The notes under the pieces: generated by a model
Databases searched by the model: none
The model's input: the letters and a program-made list of their open reading frames with translations, nothing else
What the model was told of the DNA's origin: nothing
Program-made: the position numbers and the translations under genes
Shown here: in pieces, positions 6,738 to 14,867 of the stretch
Position numbering within the stretch: position 1 is the first letter of the stretch
Layout of the letters: each line of letters opens with the position of its first letter
Assembly (NCBI GenBank): GCA_903885555.1
Contig: CAISIV010000157.1
Location: forward strand, 1-39,561
DNA length: 39,561 bases
Direction of reading: 5' to 3'
Origin: an uncultured Hyphomicrobiales bacterium
GTDB taxonomy: Bacteria; Pseudomonadota; Alphaproteobacteria; Rhizobiales; Xanthobacteraceae

Positions 6738-7412
6738 CTAATTTGCCCGCAGGCCACTGGGCGCCACCGGCGCCTTCAGCGGCGTCCCGCCATGCGCCGG
6801 TCCTCGCGCCGGCACGTTGATCGGATCGAGACCCGGGACGCTGACATGCGCGGTGATCGCATGCGGCGCGTATTCCGACGCCAGGCCGAAGAAGTAGCTG
6901 GTATGGCCGGTGCCCGGCGTCGGCCCGGCGCAGACCGGCTGGTTGAACGTGAAGGTGATGACGTTGCCGGTCTGCTCAACGGCGTAGAGGCCGATGGTGC
7001 CGAGACCGCCTTTGTTGACGACATAGACATCATCGAGCGGCCCGCTCTTGTTGTATTGCAGCTTGGTCACCGCGCCGAAGTCGACCGCAATATCGGTGAC
7101 GCAGGGCACCTCGCCATCGCTCACCGCCTGGGTGAGATCGACGCGATACTCATAGGCCGTCTTGCCGGCCCCGGGCGCACCGGCCGCGCCAGGAAACGTG
7201 CGCGATTGCAGACGCGCCGTGCCGGTCCAGACCAAAGGCGAAACGGTGATGGTGCCGACGCTGTCGGTGACGGTCACGGTGCAGGTCGTATTGAATACGC
7301 AGTTGATATCGGGCGCTGCTACATCGACGAAACTGAGTGGCCCGGCCTGAGCCGGCGCCGCCACGCCAAGCGCGGCGACGATAGATAGTTGGACGAGTTG
7401 TACGATACGCAT
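6738..7412 (-). CDS. Unknown exported protein
   Basis: This 224-residue protein has an N-terminal signal peptide (MRIVQLVQLSIVAALGVAAPAQA, cleavage before GP). I do not recognise the mature part. It is rich in Thr, Val and Gly, looks mainly beta-stranded, and has four cysteines (in DINC, NTTC, EVPC and QPVC) that could make two disulfides in the periplasm. The C-terminal 30 residues are proline-rich and probably disordered. A GGGGG ribosome site lies 6 nt before the ATG, which supports the start. It sits between the dihydroxyphthalate-decarboxylase-like gene and soxD, all on the minus strand. A function in sulfur oxidation is possible by position only. Confidence 0.6.
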   Translation of the reverse strand: MRIVQLVQLSIVAALGVAAPAQAGPLSFVDVAAPDINCVFNTTCTVTVTDSVGTITVSPLVWTGTARLQSRTFPGAAGAPGAGKTAYEYRVDLTQAVSDGEVPCVTDIAVDFGAVTKLQYNKSGPLDDVYVVNKGGLGTIGLYAVEQTGNVITFTFNQPVCAGPTPGTGHTSYFFGLASEYAPHAITAHVSVPGLDPINVPARGPAHGGTPLKAPVAPSGLRAN

Positions 7413-7497: not shown

Positions 7498-8157
7498 CTA
7501 TTCGACCCCGCCGCGCTTGGCGGCCTTGTCGTCCGGGGTGACATCGACCACGGCGGCACGCCCGGTGATTTTCACCGGGGGGCCGCAATTCTTCATGCAG
7601 GGCTTGGCCCAGAACGACTTCTCAGCCTTTTCCCGGTCGTCGTCGAAGAAACCGGCCTGGTTCGGCATCTTGACCTGCTTCCAGGTCTGCCTCGACAGCA
7701 CGAAGGCGTCATCGACGATGTCGTTGAGATTAAGCACATAAGCCGTGACAGCGTAGAGTTCGTCATTCGTCAGCGACTGCGCATCGCCGAACGGCATGGC
7801 GCGGCGGATGTAATCGAACACACTGGAGAGATACGGATAATACGAACCGACGGTCTTGACCGGATCGCTCGACGCCAGCGTGCCCTTGCCTTGCGCGAGC
7901 TGCGGCCAGCGTCCGGCGCTCTCGCCGAACTCGCCGTGACAGGCGGCGCATTTCTCCAGATAGATCTTTTCGCCCGTCTTCACCGAGCCTTGTCCGGGAG
8001 GCGCACCCTGCCCATCGGGACGCACATCGATGTCCCAGCCGGCAATCTGCTCAGACGTCGCCGGCTGACCGATGCCGTAGTGCCGCGGCTTGCCTTGCGC
8101 GAACGCGGGCACAGCAATCAGAGAAAGTAGCAGTGCGAAGCTAACCGACCTCGACAT
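7498..8157 (-). CDS. soxD: SoxD, monoheme cytochrome c subunit of sulfane dehydrogenase
   Basis: This 219-residue periplasmic cytochrome c has a signal peptide (MSRSVSFALLLSLIAVPAFA) and one heme site, CAACH at residues 70-74, followed by a conserved PFGDAQSLTNDELYAVTAYVLNL segment that supplies the methionine side. The C-terminal part has two more cysteines in PCMKNC. It accepts electrons from SoxC while sulfane sulfur bound to SoxY is oxidised. The start is set by a GGGAGG site 6 nt before the ATG; the gene overlaps the end of soxC by 17 bp, indicating coupling. It is shorter than the diheme SoxD of Paracoccus: the second heme domain is absent. Another name could be the cytochrome of a sulfite-dehydrogenase pair, but the sox context decides. 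Confidence 0.85.
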   Translation of the reverse strand: MSRSVSFALLLSLIAVPAFAQGKPRHYGIGQPATSEQIAGWDIDVRPDGQGAPPGQGSVKTGEKIYLEKCAACHGEFGESAGRWPQLAQGKGTLASSDPVKTVGSYYPYLSSVFDYIRRAMPFGDAQSLTNDELYAVTAYVLNLNDIVDDAFVLSRQTWKQVKMPNQAGFFDDDREKAEKSFWAKPCMKNCGPPVKITGRAAVVDVTPDDKAAKRGGVE

Positions 8158-9409
8158 TTTCGACCTCCCCGCTCGCCCGCAGCGCCCAGGTCTGAATGCC
8201 GTTGTTGTGATAGATCGAATTGACGCCGCGGATCTTGCGCAGTTCTGCCTTCGACGGCTGCACATAGCCGGTCTCGTCGATGGCGCGCGACTGCAGCAGC
8301 AGCTCCGCTCCGTTCCAGTCGAATTCGGCGTAGAAACGCACGCAGGCGCGATCGAACACCGGGCCGTCAATGCGCGCGGTGCGCCAGTTGCGACCGCCGT
8401 CGAGCGACACGTCGACACGCTTGATCTTGCCGCGGCCCGACCAGGCGAGGCCTGAGATGACAGTGAACCCTTTGCGCTTGAGTGGCGCCTGCGGCGACGG
8501 CGAGGTGATGACGGACTTGGCGTCCATCTCGAAGGTGAACTTGCGCGCCTTGCCGTTTTCCAGAAGGTCTGTGTACTTGGCCGTCTCCTCGCGCGTGTAC
8601 CAGGGCTGATCGCCGAGCTTGATGCGGCGCAGCCATTTCACCCAGACATTGCCTTCCCAGCCCGGCACGACAAGGCGAACCGGGTAGCCCTGCTCCGGCC
8701 GCAGCATCTCGCCATTCATACGATAGGCGACGAGACAATCATCGAGCGCCTTGGCCATCGGGATGGAGCGATTCATCGCCGCGGCGTCGCCGCCTTCGGC
8801 CATCAGCCAGGTCGCATTGGGTTTCAGACCCGCCTGCTCGAGTAACAACTTCAGCGGCACGCCGGTGTATTGCACGCAATGCACCATGCCGTGGGTGTAC
8901 TGGCAGCCGTTGAGCTGCGCGCCGCGCCACTCCATGCCCGAGTTCGCCGCGCATTCGAGGAAGTAGATGCGGTTGACGCGCGGCAGGCGCTTCAGGTCTT
9001 CCAGCGTAAAAGTCAGCGGCTTGTCGACAAGACCGTGGATCATCAGCCGGTAGTCGTTTGGATCGATCTCGGCGATGCCGGAATGATGGCGCTCGAAGCA
9101 CAGACCGTTCGGAGTGATGATACCGTCGAGTTCATGAAGCGGCGTGAAGCTGACGGAAGACTCGCGGCTCGCCGTGAGCCATTGCACGTCGCGGCGCACG
9201 ACATCCTTCTCGAACTTCGACGGAGCGCCGTACGGATGGCTGGCGACGCCCTCGCCGAGTTGCTTGCTCCAGCCGGCGACATTGGGCGGGAGATTCTTTT
9301 CGTCGGCACGAGCGGCGCCAGTTGCGCCTGCGACCGCCAAACCCGCTGCACCGGCAAGAAAGCGGCGGCGCGAGCTGCGTTTCTTTTCAGGATCGGTCGG
9401 CTCGATCAT
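8141..9409 (-). CDS. soxC: SoxC, molybdopterin subunit of sulfane dehydrogenase
   Basis: This 422-residue periplasmic molybdoenzyme of the sulfite oxidase family starts with a twin-arginine signal (RSSRRRFLAGAAGLAVAGAT, residues 11-30). The molybdenum cysteine is Cys153 in FLECAANSG, followed by the VVPGWEGN-type cofactor segment and a C-terminal dimerisation domain (WSGRGKIKRVDVSLDGGRNW). SoxCD takes six electrons from SoxY-bound sulfane sulfur, so a cell with it oxidises thiosulfate fully to sulfate instead of making sulfur globules. GGGAG lies 6 nt before the ATG. It follows soxB by 75 bp and overlaps soxD. Confidence 0.93.
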   Translation of the reverse strand: MIEPTDPEKKRSSRRRFLAGAAGLAVAGATGAARADEKNLPPNVAGWSKQLGEGVASHPYGAPSKFEKDVVRRDVQWLTASRESSVSFTPLHELDGIITPNGLCFERHHSGIAEIDPNDYRLMIHGLVDKPLTFTLEDLKRLPRVNRIYFLECAANSGMEWRGAQLNGCQYTHGMVHCVQYTGVPLKLLLEQAGLKPNATWLMAEGGDAAAMNRSIPMAKALDDCLVAYRMNGEMLRPEQGYPVRLVVPGWEGNVWVKWLRRIKLGDQPWYTREETAKYTDLLENGKARKFTFEMDAKSVITSPSPQAPLKRKGFTVISGLAWSGRGKIKRVDVSLDGGRNWRTARIDGPVFDRACVRFYAEFDWNGAELLLQSRAIDETGYVQPSKAELRKIRGVNSIYHNNGIQTWALRASGEVENVEVG

Positions 9410-9484: not shown

Positions 9485-11173
9485 TTAGACACCGGAAATT
9501 TTCACGCTCGTATTAGGCGCTATGCGAACCGTCTTCTCGGCGGCAATGTATTTTTCGACCAGGTCCCAGACCGGCGGGCCCTCGGTGCCCTCGTTGACCG
9601 AAGCCCAGCCGGCGACGGTGTATTCCTTGGCCGGTTCGATCGGCTTTCCGGTCTTGAGGTGAGTCATGCCAGAAATGCGCTGGCCGATCGGCTTACTCAC
9701 GTCGATCGAATAACCAAGCCCGCCGCAGCGCACCATGTCGCCGCCTTGCTGGTAGTACGGGTCGGGATTGAACAGGTTGTCGGCGACATCTTCGAGAATG
9801 TCCTTGAGCCGCTCGCCCGTCATCGGCATCCGATAGACCTGCGGATAGGTGATGGCCGTGGCGTTGTGGATGTCTTCCATGGTGATCGGTGCACCCGGCA
9901 ACACGCTGGTGCCCCAGCGGAAGCCCGGCGACAGCACGATCTCGGCGTCACGCTCCTTCAGCAGCGCTGCGCAGATCAGATCATCGAAGGTGCCGTTGAA
10001 ATTGCCGCGCCGGTACAGAAGTCCGTCCGCCTGCCCCACGACCCGCGCCAGTTCCTTCGCGTAAGGCGCGCGCGCCTTGGTGATGGCGGCCGTCATCTCG
10101 GCATCGGGCGCGATGACGTCTGCAAACAGCGGGATCAATTTGTAGCGGAAGCCTTTCACCGCGCCGTCCTGCACGTCGAGATCGAGACGCGAGACGAACT
10201 TGCCGTGGCTGCCGGACGCGATCAGCAGCGTCTTGCCGACCGTGACCGCCTCGGGCAACGCATCATGCGTATGGCTCGTGAGGATCACATCGATGCCAGC
10301 GACGCGCGAAGCCAATTTGCGGTCGACGTCGAAGCCGTTATGCGACAGCAGCACGACCAGTTGCGCGCCGGCCTTGCGCGCCTTGTCGACCTGGGAGCGC
10401 ACGTCTTCCTCGCGGATACCGAACGACCATTTCGGCATCATCCAGCGCGGATTAGCGACCGGCGTATAGGGGAAGGCCTGCCCCAGCACTGCGACCTTGA
10501 CGCCGCCGCGCGTAAACATCTTCATCGCCTCGAAGGCCGGCTCGTTCCATTCCGTGTCGCGGATGTTCAGCGCCAGAAACGGAAAGCCGAGCCCCTCGAT
10601 CAACTGCTTGACCCGCGCTTCGCCATACGTGAACTCCCAATGGCCGGTCATGGCATCGGGCTTCAGCAGCGCCATGCAGTCGACCATGTCCTGGCCTTTG
10701 CTGGCATTGGCGCTGAGCGAGCCCTGCCAGGTGTCACCACCGTCGAGCATCAACACTTTGTCGTCACGCTCGGCGCGCACTTTTTTGACGACGGTCGCCA
10801 GACGATCGAGCCCGCCGATCTTGCCGTAGCTCTTCGCCAGCGCGGAGAAGTCCTCCGACGTCATGGCGTAAGCGGCGGCGGATTTTTCCGAAATGCCGAA
10901 ACGCTTGAGGAAATCGCTGCCCGTCAGATGTGGCGGCTGCCCCCTCGCCTCGCCGACGCCCAGATTGACCGACGGCTCGCGGAAATAGACCGGCATCAAC
11001 TGGCCGTGGATGTCGGCAACATGCAGCAGCGTGACGTTGCCGAGCGGATCGAACTTGAGAAGCTCTTCCTGGGTCAGCCGTTGCTGGGCAAAGGCACGCG
11101 TGAGGCTACCTCCGCCCGCCACCAGCGCGGCGGTCGCCGCGCCGACCTGGAGCATTTCGCGGCGAGTGATCAT
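9485..11173 (-). CDS. soxB: SoxB, SoxY-thiocysteine S-sulfate thiol esterase
   Basis: At 562 residues this is full length for SoxB. It has a Tat signal (TRREMLQVGAATAALVAGG), then the calcineurin-like metallophosphatase domain with the metal ligands in ADIHGQL, GGDTWQGS, GHWEFTYG and TSHTHDA. The 5'-nucleotidase C-terminal domain follows from about residue 370. With a dimanganese centre it hydrolyses the sulfate group from thiosulfate attached to SoxY. The gene lies 30 bp after the fused soxXA on the same strand. The residues expected for the active site are all present. Confidence 0.95.
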   Translation of the reverse strand: MITRREMLQVGAATAALVAGGGSLTRAFAQQRLTQEELLKFDPLGNVTLLHVADIHGQLMPVYFREPSVNLGVGEARGQPPHLTGSDFLKRFGISEKSAAAYAMTSEDFSALAKSYGKIGGLDRLATVVKKVRAERDDKVLMLDGGDTWQGSLSANASKGQDMVDCMALLKPDAMTGHWEFTYGEARVKQLIEGLGFPFLALNIRDTEWNEPAFEAMKMFTRGGVKVAVLGQAFPYTPVANPRWMMPKWSFGIREEDVRSQVDKARKAGAQLVVLLSHNGFDVDRKLASRVAGIDVILTSHTHDALPEAVTVGKTLLIASGSHGKFVSRLDLDVQDGAVKGFRYKLIPLFADVIAPDAEMTAAITKARAPYAKELARVVGQADGLLYRRGNFNGTFDDLICAALLKERDAEIVLSPGFRWGTSVLPGAPITMEDIHNATAITYPQVYRMPMTGERLKDILEDVADNLFNPDPYYQQGGDMVRCGGLGYSIDVSKPIGQRISGMTHLKTGKPIEPAKEYTVAGWASVNEGTEGPPVWDLVEKYIAAEKTVRIAPNTSVKISGV

Positions 11174-11203
11174 CGCGCCAGCCTGTTATGCGCGCACAAA
11201 GCG

Positions 11204-12475
11204 CTAGTGCCGGATGCCGGGCACACTCAGCTTTTGGCCTTCGTTCTGCGACACAAGGTACAGTTCAAGATCGCCGTATTCCTTGGCATCCGGAGCCAGC
11301 TCGTCGGCGCGGATGTTGACCTGGCACCACTGGAAACGCTGACGGATATCCCAGATCGCCTGCAGGCTGGTCCGCCACGTCGGGAAGTGATCGGCCTGGC
11401 CTTTCGGCTCGCCCAGCCACTGGCCGCGGATCCACTTGTTGGCGGATTTGCCGTGGCAGTCGGTGCAGGCAAAGTTGAGCTCGCCGACCTTGCGAGCGCT
11501 CAGCGCCTTGCCGCGCTCGATCGCGGCCTTCGACTCCGCACTGGTGGTGTCGATCTTGATCGGCGTTCCGTTGGCGAGATAGTGCAGATAGACCGACATC
11601 ACGCGGTTCTCGTCGGTTTCCATCAGCCAGGTATCGCCGGTGGTGGCTTTGGTGTGGCGCGTGACGAATTCCTCGACACCCAGAACCTTGTTGAGCCGCG
11701 GCTCCCACTTCGGCATCGACGCCGCCCAGGTCTTGAAGCTTTCCTTCGGATCGCTATGGCAGGTGTTGCAGGAGAAGCCGATGGCGCTCTTCTGCTTCCA
11801 CAGTTCCTGCGCCTTATCGACCGCCCACATGCCGGGATTTTCGATCGGATCGAGATTGTCGCGCTTCTCGACCGGCGCCGGGCGCTTGTCCGGATTATCG
11901 AGCTCGGTCTTGTAGGGCGCCGGAGACTTCAGGGTCTTGAGGAAGGCGACGATGTCGTTGATTTCGGCTTCGTTGAAAATGCCGTGACCACCCCAAGGCG
12001 GCATCACGGTTTCCGGATTGTAGACGCGCGCATCGAAAACATAATTGAACAACCACTTGTCCTCGCGTCCAGCATTGCCGATTTCCGACAGATCGGGACC
12101 GACATTGCCCGGCAAGGCAGTGCCGCCAGCCGGGCCCATGGTGTGACAGGCCAGGCACGAGCCGCCACGATTGCGGTCCGCGACCAGAACGGCGCCCTTG
12201 GTGCTGTCGCCGGTAATTGGGCCGGTCAGTTTGCGCGCCGCTGTCGGGGGCGGCGGTGACGCCAGATTGGCGAGCGTGTTAAATTTGGAGGCGTCGCGCA
12301 CCGGCCAGCCGGCATAGCGCTTCCAGGGCTGAGCCGAAGCGTCGCCGGTGTCGAGTTGCGGCAGACGTTTACCGGCCTGCGCATTGGCGTCCGAGCCGGG
12401 GGGCACAATGAACGCGCCAGCGGCGATCAGCATCGCAGCCGCTACACTGCCAACCAGAATCCGTTTCCGCATCAT
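11204..12475 (-). CDS. soxXA: SoxX-SoxA fusion, triheme cytochrome c that loads thiosulfate onto SoxYZ
   Basis: This 423-residue exported protein joins two subunits that are separate in the well-studied Sox systems. After a signal peptide, residues about 85-190 are SoxX-like: heme site CLACH (107-111), GNVGPDLS, the methionine-ligand segment VMPPWGGHG (Met158) and EINDIVAFLKTL. A proline-rich linker (about 186-215) leads to a diheme SoxA with CNTCH (236-240), CTDCH (337-341), and the catalytic heme-ligand cysteine in RFQWCQV (Cys384). The family reaction is oxidative attachment of thiosulfate to the SoxY cysteine. Start: GGAGG 5 nt before ATG at 12475 (a second ATG is adjacent). The open frame runs unbroken through both domains, so this is not a gap artefact unless a base was lost in assembly. 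It lies between soxZ and soxB. Confidence 0.9.
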   Translation of the reverse strand: MMRKRILVGSVAAAMLIAAGAFIVPPGSDANAQAGKRLPQLDTGDASAQPWKRYAGWPVRDASKFNTLANLASPPPPTAARKLTGPITGDSTKGAVLVADRNRGGSCLACHTMGPAGGTALPGNVGPDLSEIGNAGREDKWLFNYVFDARVYNPETVMPPWGGHGIFNEAEINDIVAFLKTLKSPAPYKTELDNPDKRPAPVEKRDNLDPIENPGMWAVDKAQELWKQKSAIGFSCNTCHSDPKESFKTWAASMPKWEPRLNKVLGVEEFVTRHTKATTGDTWLMETDENRVMSVYLHYLANGTPIKIDTTSAESKAAIERGKALSARKVGELNFACTDCHGKSANKWIRGQWLGEPKGQADHFPTWRTSLQAIWDIRQRFQWCQVNIRADELAPDAKEYGDLELYLVSQNEGQKLSVPGIRH

Positions 12476-12534
12476 CCGATCCTCCACGAGCTTTTATTGT
12501 CGCCTCCGCGCCGCGTTATCCGCAGTGCGTCGCA

Positions 12535-12858
12535 TCAGGCCACGGTAATTTTTTCTTCCGCGGTAATGATGCTGCCGTCGTCGTCGGTCCAGGAGAACTT
12601 GAACGTGCCGCTCTCCTCCACCTTCGCGGTGAACTGCAGGTACGGATTGGCGGCGACCGCCGGCTCGATGGTGGCGGAGAATACCGGCTTGCCGTTGAAC
12701 TCGGCGGTAAACTTGTTGATGATCCGGCGCGGAATGGTCTTGCCGTCTTTGTCCTTGCGCTGACCCGACTCCATGACGTGCGGCATCAGCGTCTTGATCT
12801 CGATGATCTCGCCCTTCTTGGCTTCTTTGGGCAATTTGAGCCGCGGCTTTTCCGCCAT
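12535..12858 (-). CDS. soxZ: SoxZ, partner of the sulfur carrier SoxY
   Basis: This 107-residue protein matches SoxZ over its whole length: the KGEIIEIKTLMPHVMESGQR opening, IPRRIINKFTAEFNG, and a C-terminal Ig-like beta sandwich (GTFKFSWTDDDGSIITAEEKI). It has no signal peptide, as usual; it is carried to the periplasm as a complex with Tat-exported SoxY. GGAG lies 7 nt before the ATG. It lies 51 bp after soxY and 59 bp before soxXA. Confidence 0.93.
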   Translation of the reverse strand: MAEKPRLKLPKEAKKGEIIEIKTLMPHVMESGQRKDKDGKTIPRRIINKFTAEFNGKPVFSATIEPAVAANPYLQFTAKVEESGTFKFSWTDDDGSIITAEEKITVA

Positions 12859-12909: not shown

Positions 12910-13365
12910 TCAGCCGCCGCAGCCGCCGATCGTGACCTTGACCTGCTTCTGGGCGGCGTAGAACTCGCCCTTGCTGGTCTTGGCGACGACGACGATGTTC
13001 TGCGTGGCGGCGAGCCGGATGCGGGTCTGGGCTTCCGCCTTGCCCGACAGCGGCGTGAAGTGGAACGTCACCACGCCCGGGTTCGGATTGCCTTCGGAGA
13101 CGACCAGCACGTCGCTGACATAGTTCTCGGCCGTCATCGGCGCATCGACCGACACGGTCAGCGGCACGGTGTTGCCGTTCTCGGCGATTTCGGGAAGCTC
13201 GATGGTGATCTTGCCCTGCGTCGCCGCCTTGCCGCCGGTGAACTTGGCGACGTCATCGGCTGCCTCTTTGGCGGCGGCATGCGCGCCCTGGTTCCAGCCG
13301 ACCACGGTAAGCGTCACGGCACCGGCGCCGACGGCCAGGGCTGCGCGACGAGTCATATTCCGCAT
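12910..13365 (-). CDS. soxY: SoxY, covalent sulfur-substrate carrier
   Basis: This 151-residue periplasmic carrier has a Tat-type signal (NMTRRAALAVGAGAV, cleavage near AHA30) and ends with the hallmark GGCGG. The cysteine (Cys149) carries thiosulfate and its sulfur intermediates from enzyme to enzyme. I placed the start at 13365 because GGGAGGAAG sits at the right distance before this ATG. An upstream in-frame ATG at 13389 would add eight residues without such a site. It is the first gene of the YZ-XA-B-C-D series. A palindrome that resembles a persulfide-repressor operator lies about 85-100 bp upstream. Confidence 0.95.
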   Translation of the reverse strand: MRNMTRRAALAVGAGAVTLTVVGWNQGAHAAAKEAADDVAKFTGGKAATQGKITIELPEIAENGNTVPLTVSVDAPMTAENYVSDVLVVSEGNPNPGVVTFHFTPLSGKAEAQTRIRLAATQNIVVVAKTSKGEFYAAQKQVKVTIGGCGG

Positions 13366-13449
13366 CGAGACTTCCTCCCGAATCAACATGTTGGGGCAAA
13401 ACTCCGCCCGCTCCGAACATAGCCATGGGTGATGGTGGGTTCAAATCGT

Positions 13450-13502: not shown

Positions 13503-14090
13503 TCAGCTCGGCAGGGCTTTGACGAAATCCCTGAAGCTCTTGGTCTCATAAGCCTTTTCGCGAACGAATCGAAACATCGCCAGGAAGTCGTCCGGCCGCA
13601 GATAGCCGGGCGCGCGGGCGACCTCTCGCTTGGCCGGGGCCAGCGGCTTCAAGGCCGCGGCGCGCTCGCCGAAGAACTGGAATGTCGGGGTGAATCGCAC
13701 GCCATATTTCGCCGCCAGGTCCTTCTCCGACATCTCGGTGCCGTCGAAATCAATGACTTTGCGCGAACCGATGATGTTGAGCTGCAGAACTTCGTAATTA
13801 GCCTTGATGTAATCGGCGATTTTCGGCTGCGCAAAATTGACGAAATGGGTTTCCTTGCAATACGGGCAGCCTTTGAGCTCCCACATGATCGCGAAGCGCT
13901 TGCCTTCCTTGGCCGCGCCTTCGAGATCGTCGCTAAGGTCCAGAAAACTCTCCAGAAACCACGACTGCTTGTAGAGCCCGTCGTCGGTCAGAACAGGCTC
14001 CTCGGCGCGCGCAGCGCCAACCGCGGCCACGCTCGCGACCCCTACCAGTAGTGTGCGCCGGGTGAATTTCATGGTCTTAGAAGTATCCAT
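13503..14090 (-). CDS. soxW: SoxW-like periplasmic thioredoxin
   Basis: This 195-residue exported thioredoxin-fold protein has a signal sequence with a twin arginine (KFTRRTLLVGVASVAAVGAARA) and the active site CPYC (Cys75, Cys78). The LKGCPYCKETH and RFTPTFQFFGERA (cis-Pro loop) segments match the SoxW-type thioredoxins. It should keep SoxY or other Sox thiols reduced, using electrons from the membrane protein SoxV. It is upstream of soxY on the same strand and probably shares its regulation in part. Start is uncertain: ATG at 14090 or at 14072 (MKFTRR...); neither has a strong ribosome site. It is divergent from the unknown gene at 14139. Confidence 0.8.
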   Translation of the reverse strand: MDTSKTMKFTRRTLLVGVASVAAVGAARAEEPVLTDDGLYKQSWFLESFLDLSDDLEGAAKEGKRFAIMWELKGCPYCKETHFVNFAQPKIADYIKANYEVLQLNIIGSRKVIDFDGTEMSEKDLAAKYGVRFTPTFQFFGERAAALKPLAPAKREVARAPGYLRPDDFLAMFRFVREKAYETKSFRDFVKALPS

Positions 14091-14120: not shown

Positions 14121-14138
14121 GGAATTAAGGTGGTCCCG

Positions 14139-14867
14139 ATGTGGCGATGCTGGCTACGAAGCGCAATCCTCGGTCTCGCCTTGTGGACCGGCAGCCATGC
14201 CCTGGCCGGCGACCTCGCCGACTTCAACGCGCTCATGGAGGGGGTAACAAGCCATATTCGCGTTGCGCTCGGTTATCTGAGGACCGGGAATACCGATCTT
14301 GCGTCTCTGGAAATCGATCGTACCCGCGAAGCCTGGGGCAAACTGCAACAGCATTTCGGCAGCCGCCGCCCGGACATGTTCGAGACCAGCCCGCGCTACA
14401 AGAACATCGTGACCGGTGTCGCCGCCCGGCTGGTGGGCGCGGAGTTGCTACTCAATGCCGGACGGCCCGATGCCGCGATGGAGTCCCTCAATGCCTTGCG
14501 CGGCGAGTTCTACGATCTACGCAAGGCGAGCGGCATTGTCGTGCTGGCCGACTGTGTGCGCGACGCCAACACGGCGATGGACGCGTTGATGGTCTACAAT
14601 GACCGCGCACTCGACTTCGCCAAGTCCGAAACGCGCCTGGATCTTGTCGCCAAAACGGCGATCTACGGCGAGACGCTCAAGCGCTGCGACGGCATCGCGG
14701 GTGAAGCGGTGCGCAAGGAGCCGGAGTTTCGCCGGCTGGTTGATGGCGCACAGGCAAGCCTCACGCTCATTCCCAAAGCCATCGAGACGCGCGATCCCGA
14801 CCTCTTGCACCGCGTGCTGATCGAACTGCGCTCGTTCGACAATCTGCTGGCGTTCCGCTTTGGCTAG
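14139..14867 (+). CDS. Unknown exported helical protein next to soxW
   Basis: This 242-residue protein has a signal peptide (MWRCWLRSAILGLALWTGSHALAG). I do not recognise a family. The mature part is almost wholly helical and Arg/Ala-rich, about the size of two four-helix bundles (ALGYLRTGNTDLASLEIDRTREAWGKL). That recalls cytochrome c' architecture, but there is no CxxCH heme site. It has two cysteines (LADC, LKRC). AAGGTGG before the ATG at 14139 supports this start over a GTG at 14130. It is divergent from soxW and 8 bp upstream of fumarylacetoacetase, so it probably shares a transcript with the latter. A role in Sox chemistry is only suggested by position. Confidence 0.65.
   Translation: MWRCWLRSAILGLALWTGSHALAGDLADFNALMEGVTSHIRVALGYLRTGNTDLASLEIDRTREAWGKLQQHFGSRRPDMFETSPRYKNIVTGVAARLVGAELLLNAGRPDAAMESLNALRGEFYDLRKASGIVVLADCVRDANTAMDALMVYNDRALDFAKSETRLDLVAKTAIYGETLKRCDGIAGEAVRKEPEFRRLVDGAQASLTLIPKAIETRDPDLLHRVLIELRSFDNLLAFRFG

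Follow-up and report, generated by a model that had tools for sequence, protein, structure and literature searches.

The window, by which we mean the whole stretch of 39,561 nucleotides analysed here, carries on its minus strand a sox operon in which soxX and soxA form one gene. This gene, soxXA (12475..11204, minus strand), encodes a product of 423 aa, with an ATG at 12475, a stop at 11204-11206 and an alternative in-frame GTG start at 12487. Domains were called with NCBIfam profiles, and both matches lie above the curated cut-offs: SoxX covers residues 104-182 (11930..12166; TIGR04485, 77.5 bits, cut-off 61) and SoxA residues 214-422 (11208..11836; TIGR04484, 158.8 bits, cut-off 110). Between them is a conserved joint, residues 183-213 (11837..11929), in the same frame as both domains. 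Read by eye, the protein begins with one hydrophobic export segment, a likely signal peptide of about residues 1-33 (12377..12475), in keeping with the single signal peptide described in an initial annotation of this DNA. On the plus strand, a gene at 11204..12475 was rejected, as it has a stop in frame, and an 866-aa open reading frame at 9659-12259, which overlaps soxB and soxXA, was taken to be a shadow frame.

The product has three CxxCH motifs (residues 107-111, 236-240 and 337-341). The first, CLACH (12143..12157), is the SoxX heme site, with C110 and H111 invariant and C107 nearly so in alignment A1; Met158 (12002..12004), invariant in the same alignment, is by homology the likely distal ligand of this heme. 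The other two, CNTCH (11756..11770) for heme 1 and CTDCH (11453..11467) for heme 2 at the active site, give the SoxA part the two heme motifs of diheme (type 1) SoxA, and the presence of the heme-1 motif sets it apart from the monoheme types 2 and 3. Cys384 (11324..11326), the sole Cys besides those of the CxxCH motifs, is Cys in 152/152 rows compared, aligns with a Cys of both SoxXA of Paracoccus pantotrophus (2c1d) and SoxAX of Rhodovulum sulfidophilum (1h31), and is by homology the putative ligand of heme 2. Onto Arg368 and Arg380, invariant in A1 and present in 147/152 and 149/152 rows respectively, we mapped the two active-site arginines described in the accessible text of PMC4423706. Both reference proteins likewise combine a diheme SoxA with SoxX and share the heme-2 Cys and the active-site arginines with the window protein; they differ in consisting of two chains and in having Cys at the putative heme-1 ligand place, where the window protein has His274 (11654..11656). 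The initial annotation had read the gene as SoxX and SoxA fused into one triheme protein, and had listed CLACH, Met158, two SoxA CxxCH motifs and Cys384; all of these were found in the minus-strand frame.

Solved chains matched at E <=0.001 were SoxA of 2c1d, 1h31, 3oa8 and 3ocd and SoxX of 1h31, 3oa8 and 2c1d. A fold search with an AlphaFold2 model placed the same four SoxA chains at the top (E <=3.5e-5), followed at lower ranks by the TsdBA structure 5lo9 (E 0.006) and, weakly, by SoxX chains (E >=0.07); the fold-alignment identity of the SoxA part was 20% to 1h31 and 27% to 2c1d. As a whole the model is of low confidence (pLDDT 67.4, pTM 0.60), and the block around SoxA heme 1, including His274, has a pLDDT of 89.

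The operon and a second sox-like cluster

The operon runs in the order thioredoxin-like gene, soxY, soxZ, soxXA, soxB, soxC and probable soxD, all on the minus strand; the position of soxXA between soxZ and soxB is unlike the classic order soxX-Y-Z-A, a departure already pointed out in the initial annotation. The soxY gene (12910..13389; TIGR04488, 147.7 bits, cut-off 125) is of the thiosulfate type, with a GGCGG end, and is followed by soxZ (12535..12858; TIGR04490, 111.7 bits). Beyond the fusion lie soxB (9485..11173; TIGR04486, 862 bits), the sole soxB match in the genome, and soxC (8141..9409; TIGR04555, 657 bits), so that soxXA is accompanied by genes for both SoxYZ and SoxB, as expected of a member of the SoxXA family. 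The probable soxD (7498..8157, with an inferred start) follows soxC and encodes a short monoheme cytochrome; Cytochrom_C matches in 7498-8127, and no SoxD family model matched. The thioredoxin-like partner gene (13503..14090; Thioredoxin_2, 64.7 bits), a neighbour in the genus loci as well, is presumably SoxW/SoxS-like, judging by its position. Two flanking genes gave no Pfam or NCBIfam match: an exported-looking protein of 224 aa encoded after soxD (6738-7412, minus strand), and a 245-aa protein (14130-14867, plus strand) that diverges from the sox operon, occupies the same place in most of the genus loci read and is perhaps part of the Sox system.

The genome has one SoxB match and two SoxY. 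A second sox-like cluster, with split soxX, soxY, soxZ and soxA, lies on another contig (L059, contig C21, 5633-9911); its SoxY belongs to the paralogues with the 'AACIE arm' (TIGR04487, 210.4 bits, cut-off 172), and no soxB, soxC or soxD match was found within 16 kb around it. The fused SoxXA is therefore likely to work with the true SoxYZ and with SoxB, encoded in its own operon; the split soxX and soxA on C21 could also serve SoxYZ. The C21 cluster also encodes a flavoprotein that matches sulfide:quinone reductase and another product that matches lactonases, in both cases below the cut-off; genes upstream of the cluster resemble by eye a molybdenum hydroxylase pair.

Distribution and exchange of fused and split pairs

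Within the window's genus, 21 of the 36 genomes, the window's own included, have a full fused match without a stop, and one further genome has a fused match cut by a contig end (22/36). The genus includes the cultured Pseudolabrys sp. Root1462, which has a fused gene (locus L026). Seven extra genus genomes (G800-G806) are fused at the soxB locus in four cases (L175, L177, L178, L179), cut at that locus in two (L180, L181) and without a fused gene there in one (L176). We also collected 27 loci of relatives, which come partly from the same genomes as the genus set. One of these (L025) is cut, with the greater part of SoxX missing, and entered the counts solely as a His row; L027 and L028, in which the fusion is in pieces, and L050, which meets a contig end, were excluded from the counts of whole fusions. 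The frame breaks in L027 and L028 occur in MAGs labelled Asaia bogorensis, whose labels and assemblies look doubtful.

Matches were found in 72/385 genomes of a class sample, where two are fused and one of these is the window's own, and in 75/398 genomes of a phylum sample, where the one fused match is the window's own. The class of G569 yielded matches in 169/369 genomes, at least six of them fused, and the class of G448 matches in 7/48. In these samples the frames were inspected individually for the collected loci. More distant fusions, with identities of 53-61%, are present in Reyranella, in Enhydrobacter and on a plasmid of Indioceanicola profundi, the record of which has two annotated features in total. 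One locus (L023, 3990-7197), from a MAG labelled Candidatus Odyssella, has two soxXA fusions in tandem between soxZ and soxB. The fusion of SoxX to SoxA is thus rare in general, as the initial annotation had supposed and as the fused fractions of the two classes bear out (2/385 and at least 6/369), yet it is usual in the window's genus.

Split pairs also occur close to home. Two genus genomes, G028 and G029 (loci L170 and L171), have a split soxX-soxA pair between soxZ and soxB, with a SoxA that lacks heme 1 and SoxB identities of 85% and 89%; in G001, G005, G015 and G020, soxA-soxX lies on the opposite strand, between the thioredoxin-like gene and soxY. Of the three SoxA types distinguished in the accessible part of PMC4003848, the monoheme types 2 and 3, as in Starkeya novella and Congregibacter, have the same operon role as the fusion, and some members of the genus have a SoxA without heme 1 either in the fusion slot or next to it; types 2 and 3 differ from the window protein in the absence of heme 1 and in the separate SoxX. 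In a quick SoxB tree of 105 rows, with some genomes represented repeatedly, a starred group unites the rows of G028 and G029 with three fused ones, which indicates that a split pair probably replaced the fused gene in these two genomes. The fused label needs 10 changes on this tree, seven of them forced by starred branches; soxXA therefore does not follow soxB strictly. A similar exchange of modules has been proposed for soxA of Starkeya novella (PMC4003848, as far as its text was available).

Because a split pair occupies the same place in the operon of two genus members, the fusion is not indispensable. The initial annotation had suggested that fusion would fix a 1:1 stoichiometry and keep electron transfer within one chain. 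As decisive advantages, both are weakened by two results: the separate SoxAX of R. sulfidophilum already has its hemes 10.7 Å apart edge to edge (PMC4423706, in the part accessible), and a split pair fills the slot of the fused gene in two genomes of the same genus.

The heme-1 ligand and the history of the fusion

We compared 152 rows, comprising 46 fused or part-fused proteins, 104 split SoxA and the two PDB chains. At the place of His274, His is present in 43/43 fused rows of one clade (all rows aligned); the other three fused rows (L192, L193, L194) all have Cys. Among 72 diheme split SoxA the place is taken by Cys in 66, Ser in three, Glu in two and His in one (L123), and 32/104 split rows are without the heme-1 motif, yet have Cys at the equivalent place. 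Such variation outside the fusions is seen in the split diheme proteins of L085, L099, L073, L077, L125 and L123, which have Glu, Ser or His. The Cys of 'VNACVT' in 2c1d is aligned, with no gap, to His274 in 'VTRHTK', while the alignment of 1h31_A has a gap beside or at this place; both PDB chains have Cys at the equivalent position, and we take this Cys to be the distal ligand of heme 1 in both structures. Further His residues besides His274 are also invariant in A1. The clade is marked by a second feature at the active site: Trp precedes the heme-2 Cys in 43/43 clade rows vs 2/106 split and PDB rows, and the stretch after heme 2 also differs between the clade and other SoxA.

In a careful SoxA tree of 88 rows after thinning (19 fused and 69 split, with type-2-like SoxA confined to the quick trees), the His fusions form a single clade, 16 rows apart from 72 with support of 100/100, whereas split SoxA surround L193 and L194. 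These SoxA trees are rooted at midpoints. The His clade does not group with the diheme SoxA of 2c1d and 1h31; in a quick tree these chains fall with split diheme rows, apart from the His clade, whose next starred set comprises 20 split rows together with another fused one. Forcing the His clade together with L193 and L194 costs 32 log-likelihood units and is rejected (p-AU 0.009), whereas forcing it together with L192 gives a tree, missed by the free search, that is 4.8 log-likelihood units better than the free one (p-AU 0.61), both for groups chosen after the tree was seen. L192 may therefore share the origin of the His-clade fusion. In the SoxX tree, built from few columns, L192 and the split pairs L195, L205 and L206, in which soxX adjoins soxA and SoxA lacks heme 1, join the fusions (99/92). 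Two features of this tree speak against a simple history: the divergent L191, on a long branch, lies apart from the remaining 15 His rows, and L193 does not group with L194, as if each had been fused separately. Of the other fusions, one or more seem to have arisen independently of the His clade, and at least two fusion events are the best reading of these trees.

With His274 in place of the distal Cys that characterizes type 1 SoxA, the His clade fits none of the three SoxA types fully. To judge from sequence, heme 1 of the clade probably has two His ligands and, with them, a higher potential; the active-site His/Cys hemes of SoxAX are reported at or below -400 mV in the available portion of PMC6879331, and we infer that a His ligand would raise the potential of heme 1. 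A plainer account is that SoxXA is ordinary, that neither its fusion nor His274 matters, and that heme 1 is a drifting vestige. The Ser, Glu or His at the ligand place in 6/72 diheme split rows, the split rows that have no heme-1 motif and the split pairs that take over from the fusion in kin are all consistent with this account; however, drift should vary the His, which is retained together with the heme-1 CxxCH in 43/43 rows from two classes, and we regard a vestigial heme 1 as unlikely, though not negligibly so.

Function of the fused protein

Most likely, the fused protein serves as the functional SoxXA in a complete Sox system. We hold with good confidence that it is an exported SoxXA of a complete periplasmic Sox system and belongs to a distinct fusion clade in which the heme-1 Cys has been exchanged for His274. 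This explanation builds on the frame, the conserved sites, the operon, the clade in the SoxA tree and the His/Cys pattern; from these the activity, the ligation and the potentials are predicted. The gene would give rise to one exported c-type cytochrome with the role of SoxXA, at whose SoxA heme-2 site, with Cys384 as ligand, thiosulfate would be joined oxidatively to the carrier cysteine of SoxY. Electrons would pass to the SoxX heme (His/Met) within the same chain, SoxB would then free sulfate, and SoxCD would oxidise the sulfur that remains; heme 1 of SoxA, with His274 as distal ligand instead of Cys, would probably be bis-histidine and of higher potential. If the fusion and the split pair have the same role, a split pair in this slot, as in G028 and G029, is what one would expect.

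The Trp before the heme-2 Cys and the differing stretch after heme 2 could instead point to a sulfur or thiol substrate other than thiosulfate. We consider this very unlikely, as the same operon encodes a true SoxY (GGCGG), SoxZ, SoxB and SoxC, with equivalog matches above cut-off.

Between the window and its nearest relative (L002), residues 183-213 differ by nine synonymous and no nonsynonymous changes, and over 190 pairs from 20 chosen sequences pN/pS was 0.34 in the joint, compared with 0.27 in SoxX and 0.36 in SoxA. The joint is under purifying selection, and these two results indicate that it is translated within one protein. A precursor might still be cleaved in the joint after export, to give ordinary SoxX and SoxA subunits; the joint is conserved and charged and has several prolines, but a structural linker would be expected to be equally conserved, and we think such cleavage highly improbable. 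That an assembly or sequencing error joined two genes can be dismissed, even for an assembly of 320 contigs: the fusion is unbroken in the 21 genus genomes, one of which (G004) is a single contig, and the joint differs from that of its nearest kin by silent changes alone. The fusion is thus confirmed as a genuine single frame. The initial annotation was right about the unbroken frame, which relatives share without a stop, and about the fusion, gene order and rarity; it left the strand, here minus, unstated, and overlooked the change from Cys to His at heme 1 and the second, split soxX and soxA.

TsdBA of Marichromatium purpuratum (5lo9), which produces tetrathionate, differs from SoxXA in that its acceptor is not SoxX and it has no SoxYZ partner. 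Like SoxXA, it joins a thiosulfate enzyme of the SoxA family to an electron acceptor, which in TsdBA is diheme according to the accessible text of PMC6879331. The fused architecture itself is not new: a diheme SoxA with SoxX fused to its N-terminal end, as a 'single triheme protein', has been published for Halorhodospira, which are gammaproteobacterial phototrophs, unlike the window's organism, and are likened to it here by the published description (PMC8877833, available portion). Fusions in the class sample of G569 (L193, L194) have Cys and lie among split SoxA, unlike the His clade. Within the literature searched, of which coverage was partial, PMC8877833 alone describes a fused SoxXA. For Hyphomicrobium denitrificans, considered as a possible fused relative, the accessible parts of PMC10451225 and PMC12423496 mention no soxXA fusion, and 'fused' or 'fusion' in that of PMC11582611 refers to other proteins. 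The His clade and its change of ligand are undescribed in the literature searched on fused SoxXA/SoxAX, the SoxA heme ligand and Pseudolabrys, again with partial coverage.

We tentatively propose, as a possibility that is more doubtful than probable, that the clade represents a fourth SoxA type, always fused to SoxX in our sample, whose heme 1 would be bis-His and of raised potential, and would join in the flow or storage of electrons rather than being a His/Cys heme of very low potential, and which would spread and be replaced as one cassette in otherwise stable sox operons. To our knowledge, the role of SoxA heme 1 is not settled. For this reason, and because many SoxA are without it (32/104 split rows; types described in PMC4003848), the clade is useful as test material, being a natural family that retains heme 1 with a swapped ligand in one chain with the electron acceptor; its kin in which a split pair lacking heme 1 fills this slot, with closely similar SoxB and SoxYZ alongside, amount to a natural swap experiment.
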